Assembly: GCA_007279945.1 (NCBI GenBank)
Contig: QYPG01000038.1
Location: forward strand, 1 to 52,918
Reading direction: 5' to 3'
Source: Streptomycetaceae bacterium
GTDB lineage: Bacteria > Actinomycetota > Actinomycetes > Nanopelagicales > Nanopelagicaceae
Length of the DNA: 52,918 nt
Below, one piece after another: positions 42,120-52,918 of the stretch. Positions within the stretch are counted from its first letter, which is position 1. Each line of letters opens with the position of its first letter. The position numbers and the translations under genes were made by a program. Under the pieces are notes generated by a model. The model saw nothing but the letters and a program-made list of their open reading frames with translations. It made no database searches and was not told the origin of the DNA.

Positions 42120-42125
42120 GCCTAG

Positions 42126-42132
42126 TACCGTA
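42126..42132. promoter_or_regulatory. symmetric bidirectional -10 element, birA / pccB
   Basis: The heptamer TACCGTA reads as TACCGT on the plus strand (6 nt before the pccB ATG) and TACGGT on the minus strand (7 nt before the birA GTG). The whole gap between the two start codons is 18 bp. Confidence 0.55.
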
Positions 42133-42137
42133 GGGGT

Positions 42138-43709
42138 ATGAGCCGTGATCTGCATACAACTGCCGGAAAAATCGAAGATCTGCGCGCCCGTGTTGAAGAG
42201 GCAGTCCATGCCGGTTCGGCCCGCGCCGTTGAGAAGCAACATGCTAAAGGTAAGCACACCGCCCGAGAGCGCATAGAAATGCTCGTCGATGAAGAATCTT
42301 TCACTGAGATAGATGAGTTTGCCAGACACCGATCAACTCAGTTCGGTATGGAAAAAAATCGTCCCTATGGAGATGGTGTAGTTATCGGAACTGCCACTGT
42401 TGACGGCCGACCTATCGCTTTGTACTCACAGGATTTCACGATTATGGGTGGCTCCCTCGGTGAAGTTCATGCTGAAAAAATTGTAAAGATTGCCGAGTTC
42501 GCACTTAAGAGTGGAATTCCACTGATCGGCATTAATGATTCTGGTGGCGCACGGATTCAAGAAGGTGTGGCCTCGTTATCTGGTTACGGAAAAATTTTTC
42601 GCCTTAATACCCGTTCTTCTGGTGTGATTCCCCAGATCTCATTGATTCTCGGTCCATGCGCTGGTGGCTCGGCTTACTCACCTGCGCTGACCGATTTTAC
42701 GGTTATGGTCAATGAAACATCACACATGTTTATTACCGGTCCTGATGTTATTAAAACAGTAACGGGTGAAGAAGTTGGGATGGAAGAGCTCGGTGGTGCG
42801 CGCACTCACAATACTCGAACTGGAAACTCTCACTACTTAGCTGAAAGTGAAGCCGATGCGATTGATTACGTAAAAGCGCTACTTTCATACTTGCCATCAA
42901 ATAATATGGATAGCTCGCCTCATCTTCCACCCACTGAGTCCTTAGAAAAAAAGGCAAGTGACTTAGCTCTAGATTCACTGATCCCAGACTCCCCCAACCA
43001 GCCATATGATATGAAAGTATTGATTCAAGCACTGGTCGATGAAGGTGAATTTCTTGAAGTGCATGCGCTATACGCCCCAAATATTGTCGTTGGCTTTGCA
43101 CGCATCGAAGGTGAATCAATTGGAATTATCGCTAACCAGCCTTCGCAACTTGCGGGTACTTTAGATATTAATTCAAGTGAAAAAGCCGCACGTTTCTTGC
43201 GTTTTTGCGATGCTTTTAATATTCCAATTTTAACTTTGGTAGATGTACCTGGCTTCTTGCCTGGTACCGAGCAAGAATGGGATGGAATCATTCGCCGCGG
43301 CGCAAAGCTGCTGTATGCCTATGCAGAAGCATCTGTGCCACTAGTTACTTTGATAACACGAAAAGCATATGGAGGAGCATTTATCGTGATGGGTTCAAAG
43401 TATCTTGGAAGCGATATTAACTTTGCATGGCCCAGCGCTGAGATTGCAGTCATGGGTGCCCAAGGTGCAGTCAATATTCTCTACCGTAAAGAGTTAAGTG
43501 CGGCTAAAGATCCTGTTGGCAAAAGAGCTGAACTTGTCAATGAGTACAACGAGTCGCTGGCTAATCCATATCTTGCCGCTGAACGGGGAACAATTGACAC
43601 GGTAATTGAGCCAAATCAATCTCGCGCATACATTACAAAAGCCTTTAGAACTTTGCGGACCAAGCGAGATACTTTGCCTGCTCGCAAACATGGAAATATT
43701 CCGTTGTAA
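42138..43709 (+). CDS. accD5: acyl-CoA (propionyl-/acetyl-CoA) carboxylase beta subunit
   Basis: A 523-residue carboxyltransferase. The N-terminal half has [52 protein letters not shown] and [13 protein letters not shown]. The C-terminal half has [40 protein letters not shown] and [19 protein letters not shown]. It transfers carboxyl from biotin to acyl-CoA, giving methylmalonyl- or malonyl-CoA. Upstream of accE, maf and accA, as in the AccD5-AccE5-Maf-AccA3 locus of mycobacteria. The acyl specificity is inferred, not read. Confidence 0.94.
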
Positions 43710-51041: not shown

Positions 51042-51876
51042 TCGAATCGACGTCAAAAAGACTTATAAGTTATTTATTAATGGAGTATTCCCCCGCACTG
51101 AGTCGGGACGTACATATGAAGTTAAAAGTGCAAAAGGTTCATTCATAGCTAACCCATGTTTAGCTTCGCGCAAAGATTTAAAAGATGCCGTTGTAGCCGC
51201 ACGTGCAGCACATCATGGATGGAATAAAGCCACTGCCTACAACAAGGGACAGATTCTCTACCGACTTGCTGAAATGCTAGAAGGTCGGCGCGCGCAGTTT
51301 GTTGACGAGATTATCGCGGTAACTGGTGCCACAAAAGCTAAGGCCGAAAAAGAAGTGAGCGAATCTGTAGATCGCTTAGTCTGGTACGCCGGTTGGTCTG
51401 ACAAGATTTCATCCCTTTCTGGCGCCCTTAATCCAGTTGCTGGCCCTTATTACAACTTTACAATTCCTGAAAGTATGGGGGTCGTTGCAGCCATTGCACC
51501 TGAAACTCCATCACTATTGGGATTGATCGATGTCATAGCGCCAATTATTGTTTCCGGAAATACGCTCGTTGTTTTGGCAAGTTCTAAAGCCCCGCTCTCG
51601 GCTATGAGTTTTGCTGAAGTGATTGCAACCAGCGATGTGCCGGCAGGTGTCATTAATATTTTGACTGGAATGAAAGATGAAATTGCGCCATGGATGGCAT
51701 CTCATATGGACATTGATGGATTTGATATCACTGGGCTAGCTACAAAGAAGCACGCTGAGATTCGTGCGTCAGGGGCGGAAAATTTGAAGCGTATCTTCGC
51801 CTTCAAATCCCACGATCCAGCTCGTATTCTTGCCTTTATGGAAGCCAAGACTGTCTGGCACCCAATAGGGCTCTAA
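51034..51876 (+). CDS. half-length aldehyde dehydrogenase homologue (no catalytic domain)
   Basis: A 280-residue protein matching the N-terminal cofactor-binding half of aldehyde dehydrogenase (KLFINGVFPRTESGRTYEV; AVVAARAAHHGWNKATAYNK; ESMGVVAAIAPETPSLLGLI). The usual FTGSTxxG loop is replaced by FDITGLATKKHAEI, the ELGGK element is gone, and the chain ends before the Cys-containing catalytic domain with KTVWHPIGL. It overlaps the full enzyme by 8 bp and so is co-translated. I infer a non-catalytic partner or regulatory subunit. Paired long/short ALDH genes after deoC are, as I recall, known in other actinobacteria. Confidence 0.82.
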   Translation: MSNRIDVKKTYKLFINGVFPRTESGRTYEVKSAKGSFIANPCLASRKDLKDAVVAARAAHHGWNKATAYNKGQILYRLAEMLEGRRAQFVDEIIAVTGATKAKAEKEVSESVDRLVWYAGWSDKISSLSGALNPVAGPYYNFTIPESMGVVAAIAPETPSLLGLIDVIAPIIVSGNTLVVLASSKAPLSAMSFAEVIATSDVPAGVINILTGMKDEIAPWMASHMDIDGFDITGLATKKHAEIRASGAENLKRIFAFKSHDPARILAFMEAKTVWHPIGL

Positions 51877-52826
51877 GACCAGCCTTTATCAATGGTTCTT
51901 AGCCATAATTGACGGACAGCTTCGACATCTAGATCCATGACTACTCGCACCTTAGCTGAATCTTCTAAGTCCAAAGGCTCTAACTCTTTAAGAAATGAAT
52001 CTCTGCGATCACAGATTGTTTGTCCTCGTGCCGGACCAGATGAAGTATCAACCACGACATCAAACATCTCGGTAGTAAAGAACTCAGGATGAATTGCAGT
52101 TGCAACGGCGCCATAATCTCCCAAAGTTATTGGCGATACGCCCAACCGTTCGATAAATGCGTGAATGAGTGAACCCCCAAATTGAGCAGAAGGTTCGGTG
52201 GATCGCTTAAGGCTTTCAGCTTCTTCGCGAGTGACACCTGGCCGCATAAAAACATCTAAGCCGTACATGGTAATTGGAACACCGCTTTGGAAGACGATTG
52301 CAGCTGCTTCTGGGTCGTGCCAAATATTGAACTCTGCCGCAGCTGTAGCATTACCTGCCGAAGTAGAACCACCCATTAAAATAATGCGATGTAGCTTCTT
52401 AGCTGTCTCAGGAAATGCTCGTAAGAAAAGTGCAACGTTCGTTAGAGGTGCAAGCGGAACAAGAGTAACCGGCTCACTTGAACTCTCTATCAAATCTCGC
52501 ATGAGCTCTACTGCCGACCGCTTGTCTATCACCCGCTTTGATGGTGGGATTCCTAGATCTCCCATTCCATCTGCGCCATGAACATATTCGGCATATTTTG
52601 ACTCACCTAACAGGGGGCGAACAGCTCCACGAGCCACAGGAATATCCACAGCCCCTGCTGCATCTAAAACTTTCAATGTATTAGCCACAACTTGATCCAC
52701 ATTGGTATTGCCGTCGACACATGTGACTCCCAAGAGAGATATTGCCGGATGCATAGCGGCAAAAAGCACGGCAAATGCATCATCGACGCCAGTATCGACA
52801 TCTAGAATCATTGAAGTTTTATTCAT
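51873..52826 (-). CDS. iunH: inosine-uridine preferring nucleoside hydrolase
   Basis: A 317-residue Ca2+-dependent N-ribohydrolase. The DVDTGVDDAFAVLFA cluster near the N-terminus (Asp-rich) binds calcium. Other features are GVTCVDGNTNVDQVV, VHGADGMGDLGIP and AEFNIWHDPEAAAIVF near the active site. It splits nucleosides into base and ribose. The stop interlocks with the half-ALDH stop over 4 bp. It is divergent from the sugar kinase, which could phosphorylate the ribose. Confidence 0.92.
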   Translation of the reverse strand: MNKTSMILDVDTGVDDAFAVLFAAMHPAISLLGVTCVDGNTNVDQVVANTLKVLDAAGAVDIPVARGAVRPLLGESKYAEYVHGADGMGDLGIPPSKRVIDKRSAVELMRDLIESSSEPVTLVPLAPLTNVALFLRAFPETAKKLHRIILMGGSTSAGNATAAAEFNIWHDPEAAAIVFQSGVPITMYGLDVFMRPGVTREEAESLKRSTEPSAQFGGSLIHAFIERLGVSPITLGDYGAVATAIHPEFFTTEMFDVVVDTSSGPARGQTICDRRDSFLKELEPLDLEDSAKVRVVMDLDVEAVRQLWLRTIDKGWS

Positions 52827-52832
52827 ACCCGA

Positions 52833-52839
52833 TAGCCTA
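52833..52839. promoter_or_regulatory. symmetric bidirectional -10 element, iunH / PfkB kinase
   Basis: The heptamer TAGCCTA reads TAGCCT on the plus strand (6 nt before the kinase ATG) and TAGGCT on the minus strand (7 nt before the iunH ATG). The gap between the start codons is 18 bp. Confidence 0.55.
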
Positions 52840-52844
52840 TCGCC

Positions 52845-52918
52845 ATGAGTAAATCAGTTATAGCTGTCGTTGGAAGCGCCATGATGGATCTCACGGCCTA
52901 TGCCGATACTCTTCCCGA
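52845..52918 (+). CDS. PfkB-family sugar (ribo)kinase, 5' end only
   Basis: Only 24 codons are present before the window ends: MSKSVIAVVGSAMMDLTAYA and on. The VVGSxxMD start is the N-terminal strand and substrate-binding motif of ribokinase-like PfkB enzymes. Beside a nucleoside hydrolase it most likely phosphorylates ribose, but the active site is outside the window. Confidence 0.75.
   Translation, partial: MSKSVIAVVGSAMMDLTAYADTLP

Follow-up and report, generated by a model that had tools for sequence, protein, structure and literature searches.

A putative doubly leaderless bidirectional promoter in the 18-bp gap between nucleoside hydrolase and PfkB kinase genes of a Nanopelagicaceae genome

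Two divergent genes separated by 18 bp

How can two divergent genes be transcribed when only 18 bp lie between them? This question is raised by a nucleoside hydrolase gene and a carbohydrate kinase gene found at the end of the window analyzed here, i.e., the whole stretch of 52,918 nt from contig QYPG01000038.1 (GCA_007279945.1, Nanopelagicaceae). Our best answer, which we consider very probable, is that the 18-bp intergenic region (ACCCGATAGCCTATCGCC, 52827..52844) is in its entirety a single bidirectional promoter of the sigma-70 type (housekeeping), with a shared -10 element and with two predicted leaderless transcripts.

The minus-strand gene (51873..52826, ATG at 52824-52826) encodes an inosine-uridine preferring nucleoside hydrolase of 317 aa (Pfam PF01156, E = 3.1e-85), and the plus-strand gene, with its ATG at 52845, encodes a PfkB-family carbohydrate kinase (PF00294, E = 1.6e-65). 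Only the 5′ end of the kinase ORF (52845..52918) falls within the window; it continues on contig C42 (L003:68-964) to a full length of 298 aa. The window and C42 share 141 identical bases, at the end of the former (52778-52918) and the beginning of the latter, which is most likely an assembly-graph overlap and less likely a genomic repeat. Downstream of the kinase, C42 carries genes that, from a reading of their sequences, look like those of an adenosine deaminase, a pyrimidine nucleoside phosphorylase, a cytidine deaminase, and ABC permeases. Since these neighbors read as nucleoside-use genes, a role of the hydrolase/kinase locus in nucleoside use is likely, and the gene functions together with this neighborhood make co-regulation of nucleoside and ribose use plausible.

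Within the gap lies the 7-mer TAGCCTA (52833..52839), which can be read as a -10 hexamer on either strand: TAGCCT (52833-52838) on the plus strand and TAGGCT (52839-52834) on the minus strand, with an overlap of five bases, as in a shared -10 element. The former stops 6 nt short of the kinase ATG, the latter 7 nt short of the hydrolase ATG, so that the first T of the hexamer stands 12 bp from the start codon on the plus strand and 13 bp on the minus strand. When the sequence was re-read, the coordinates, core, spacings, and gap length that an earlier note had given for this site all proved exact.

Mechanistically, we propose that a TAnnnTA 7-mer provides each strand with a -10 hexamer, and that RNA polymerase would bind this shared core in either orientation. 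With hexamer ends 6 and 7 nt away from the start codons, each transcript is predicted to begin at or next to its own ATG and to be a leaderless mRNA; if both begin at the A of the ATG, the two start sites would lie 19 bp from each other. With both messages leaderless, the promoter would coincide with the whole intergenic region. In the kinase direction, the polymerase would also use a -35 element, TTGAAG, placed in the early codons of the hydrolase gene. By analogy with Escherichia coli, polymerase binding in the two directions would be mutually exclusive and not cooperative.

Leaderless signal and shared cores across the genome

The genome was taken in stretches that covered 1.325 of its 1.327 Mb, in which 1204 genes were called with a simple dicodon procedure that takes no account of upstream signals. 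Among 1180 predicted starts, TAnnnT ended 6 nt before the start in 159 cases and 7 nt before it in 69, compared to about 12 at most other spacings, and the commonest hexamers at these two spacings included TAGGCT, TAGACT, and TAGCCT. The hydrolase/kinase gap thus shows the mark of TANNNT-type leaderless genes, a hexamer roughly 10-12 bp ahead of the start (here 12 and 13 bp) of a kind that is enriched genome-wide. For pair counting, two contigs were joined over their overlap, which gave 138 divergent pairs, and a leaderless-type hexamer was present on both sides in 30 of them. Four pairs were in the TAnnnTA register, where the minus hexamer is shifted by one (the hydrolase/kinase pair, a biotin ligase pair, and one pair each on contigs C24 and C29); one more pair was shifted by two, and two pairs showed the register AnnnTAnnnT.

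Centered TAnnnTA cores at short divergent gaps are far from chance. The earlier note had proposed that such cores be scored at divergent start codons 16-24 bp apart against a shuffled control; among the 23 start-codon combinations of this kind at divergent pairs, a centered TAnnnTA (6 or 7 nt on both sides) was found in four, compared to a mean of 0.057 after shuffling, and 2000 shuffles of the gap sequences never gave more than two. Under a uniform-register null, the four pairs had a probability of P ~0.002, and none of six control hexamers produced a pair in the TAnnnTA register. Raw pattern scans of 101 genomes of the genus, made without gene context, gave no excess, and an ATnnnAT control matched more often than TAnnnTA, probably because of coding periodicity. 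Given the more numerous control hits, raw counts are uninformative, and only gene-aware counting works.

We also analyzed a second genome, from another genus (G111; 800 kb, 758 starts, 80 divergent pairs). The leaderless peak was present there (TAnnnT at 6 nt in 125 of the 758 starts), and its divergent pairs included one AnnnTAnnnT pair and zero TAnnnTA pairs. The suggestion that the layout is a recurring architecture in this genome therefore holds to a modest degree, for four of 138 divergent pairs (plus the two AnnnTAnnnT pairs), and does not extend to the 800 kb of the other genus. With four pairs here and none of 80 there, the design recurs but is rare, and the shared 18-bp core is not a general architecture.

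A companion lies in the same window, where an 18-bp divergent gap (GCCTAGTACCGTAGGGGT, 42120..42137) separates the biotin ligase gene from a carboxyl transferase gene and has the core TACCGTA (42126-42132). The ligase start is GTG in this genome; in relatives it is GTG in 25 and ATG in 5 of 30 loci, always at the same position, and both the 18-bp gap and TAnnnTA were kept in 30/30. That the two gaps share the same -10 geometry is well supported by exact cores and spacings and by conservation, and the view of them as a repeated design, not a duplication, agrees with our data: the gene pairs are unrelated, the flanks differ, and each core is conserved separately in relatives. One detail needs correction: of the three inner bases, two and not all three differ between the cores (GCC vs. 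CCG).

Two further pairs share this register. On C29 (L114:10308-11708), divergent genes for a CRP-like regulator and endonuclease III share TACTTTA in the 18-bp geometry. On C24 (G000:C24:24242-24265), an 18-bp gap separates genes for a MobA-like transferase and a metallophosphoesterase; a near-identical pattern with TATCCTA occurs in many genomes of the genus and looks like another conserved case. The sequence CATAGCATATATGCTA followed by ATG was recurrent in relatives (e.g., G052:C6:8590-8613, G037:C24:45273-45296, and G027:C64:3877-3900, among others), with the same spacing and a longer palindrome (AGCATATATGCT), which may be an operator superimposed on the shared core. A further match to the shared-core pattern (C38:83934) was dropped, as its minus frame stops after three codons.

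Conservation among relatives and alternative readings

A scan of species genomes recovered 78 related loci, and whole-genome searches added further ones; the related records are freshwater Nanopelagicales, several of them labelled Candidatus Planktophila. The conservation set consisted of 43 non-redundant orthologous compact pairs, whose hydrolases group together on their tree as a single supported clade. The complete genome of strain IMCC19121 has this 18-bp pair as well (L034). The gap measures 18 bp in all 43, and TAnnnTA is present in all 43 (TAGCCTA in 40 and TACCCTA in 3), including the direction-specific bases at 52833 and 52839, which are invariant. A parsimony count over a tree of 41 rows gave 1 change for the whole seven-base core and 41 for the eleven gap bases outside it; across 80 fourfold-degenerate sites in the hydrolase gene, the median was 14 changes per site. 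The putative shared promoter is thus kept nearly unchanged in more than 40 related species.

A conserved symmetric gap might alternatively be the operator of a dimeric regulator, with the palindrome CGATAGCCTATCG as its binding site and the promoters located elsewhere or overlapping it, and in this genome the sequence is indeed a perfect 13-bp dyad (CGATAG-C-CTATCG). However, the arms outside the invariant TAnnnTA are not kept symmetric among relatives (52840 is T in 8/43 and 52832 is A in 25/43), the companion pairs have the TA..TA geometry with different flanks, and the spacing to both ATGs matches that of the genome-wide leaderless -10. As conserved symmetry was lacking among the 43 pairs, we rejected the operator, which we regard as very unlikely.

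Besides the core, the bidirectional promoter appears to extend into the hydrolase gene. The proposed -35 element of the kinase promoter, TTGAAG (52811..52816, plus strand), lies inside hydrolase codons 4-6, 16 nt from TAGCCT. It is kept in 42/43 compact pairs and was not found in sister lineages with other gap lengths. Across the compact pairs, hydrolase codons 3-7 (AAA ACT TCA ATH ATT) lie in the window of lowest synonymous variation (rank 1 of 298), with 0 changes at the fourfold site of codon 4 and 1 at that of codon 5. As TTGAAG stands opposite the most synonymously constrained window of the hydrolase gene, it is probably the -35 element of the kinase promoter, placed inside the neighboring gene. 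A partial alternative is that early-codon conservation could come in part from selection on leaderless translation, because the early codons of the kinase gene have a weaker minimum of synonymous variation too, and in the companion pair the variation is low at the early codons of both genes. There, the carboxyl transferase gene has its window of lowest synonymous variation (rank 1 of 515) at its initial codons (42138-42164), opposite the ligase promoter, and no clear -35 element was recognized at these positions. A search by eye of the kinase codons for a -35 element in the hydrolase direction likewise found none recognizable. This result, like the lack of TAnnnTA pairs in the 800 kb of the other genus, tells against our best reading.

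The core might also be a -10 element for one direction only, in which case the other gene would use a promoter inside its neighbor and a longer leader, and the symmetry would be incidental. This would agree with the presence of a recognizable conserved -35-like element in the kinase direction only, and the dropped match on C38 is an instance of a one-sided pattern. Against it, none of the 43 pairs varies at 52833 or 52839, and lineages with a relocated kinase promoter still have the hydrolase hexamer in place at 6-7 nt, so we hold a one-directional core to be highly improbable. In four sister loci (L051, L224, L225, and L228), the gap is 23 bp long with the core AGCCTATTAT in the AnnnTAnnnT register; the hydrolase retains TAGGCT, the kinase has TATTAT 7 nt before its start, and the geometry predicts start sites 24 bp apart. 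In others (L049/L226, L052, L053, and L056), the kinase ATG lies far from the hydrolase gene and has its own TAGAAT or TAGACT 8-9 nt upstream. Two of these, L053 (AAGTCTA) and L056 (GAGTCTA), have lost the first core base, which is needed only by the predicted plus-strand (kinase) promoter, and have kept the three on which the minus promoter would depend. In two sister species groups, L049/L226 and L052, TAGCCTA is intact even though the kinase has a separate -10, which counts against our best reading. As the differences between the compact clade and its sister lineages rest on few independent events, they are support and not proof.

Finally, misassigned start codons, with the TAnnnTA alignment as a by-product of genome compaction and chance, would fit the ab initio calls that put the minus-strand start elsewhere in 2/4 pairs and the commonness of TA-rich 7-mers, without excess in raw counts, but are hardly credible, as orthologous starts align exactly 18 bp apart even where ATG and GTG swap, four pairs were observed against the 0.057 expected, and conservation, at a substitution rate far below that of fourfold sites, already contradicts them.

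Meaning and comparison with known promoters

Because leaderless transcription would fix the distance from promoter to start codon, a shared -10 element can be recognized from sequence alone by a gap of constant length around a symmetric core. Bidirectional promoters, for which mapping of start sites is otherwise required, may thus become findable in unmapped genomes and traceable through evolution, and the core bases, some specific to one direction and others shared, yield clean mutational predictions. For streamlined genomes, the locus bears on how far intergenic regulation can be compressed, with promoter parts apparently written in the codons of the neighbor. We further speculate that selection has favored doubly leaderless bidirectional promoters as a means of compaction in streamlined freshwater actinobacteria, where 18 bp plus partner codons would make up the whole regulatory region, and that polymerase competition for the shared -10 sets the ratio of hydrolase to kinase, the latter being proposed to use the released ribose; this combined proposal is possible but rather doubtful.

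A limited literature search found no work on leaderless transcripts in Nanopelagicales. In Actinobacteria, leaderless genes are marked by a TANNNT some 12 bp ahead of the start codon (PMC3160421), and the distances here, 12 bp on the plus strand and 13 bp on the minus strand, agree with it. The classic description concerns single genes, whereas here two genes predicted to be leaderless would depend on one overlapping pair of hexamers. Another divergent actinobacterial pair, lysG-lysE of Mycobacterium tuberculosis, is described in the part of the source drawn on here (PMC5648196) as having overlapping promoters, one of them reported leaderless, in a 108-bp intergenic region with a dedicated regulator and an inverted repeat; unlike the present locus, that part makes no mention of a shared -10 core.

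The nearest known parallel is found in E. coli. Bidirectional promoters with a shared -10 have been described in prokaryotes, E. coli among them (Warman et al. 2021, cited in PMC12825309). In E. coli, the most frequent distance between their start sites is 18 bp, distances of 10 and 23 bp are common too, and opposed polymerases are unable to bind at once; the basal activity of the five promoters tested was too low for competition to have an effect (PMC12825309). As here, a short pseudo-symmetric sequence contains overlapping -10 elements, one for each strand, and the 19 bp predicted for our locus adjoins the commonest distance of 18 bp, while the AnnnTAnnnT register of the sister lineages comes close to the 23-bp class. 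Our evidence differs in being comparative, and one -35 element probably lies in the reading frame of the partner gene. Shared -10 bidirectional promoters are therefore known; what would be new, on our best reading, is a compact version in which both transcripts are predicted to be leaderless and the promoter is itself the intergenic region.
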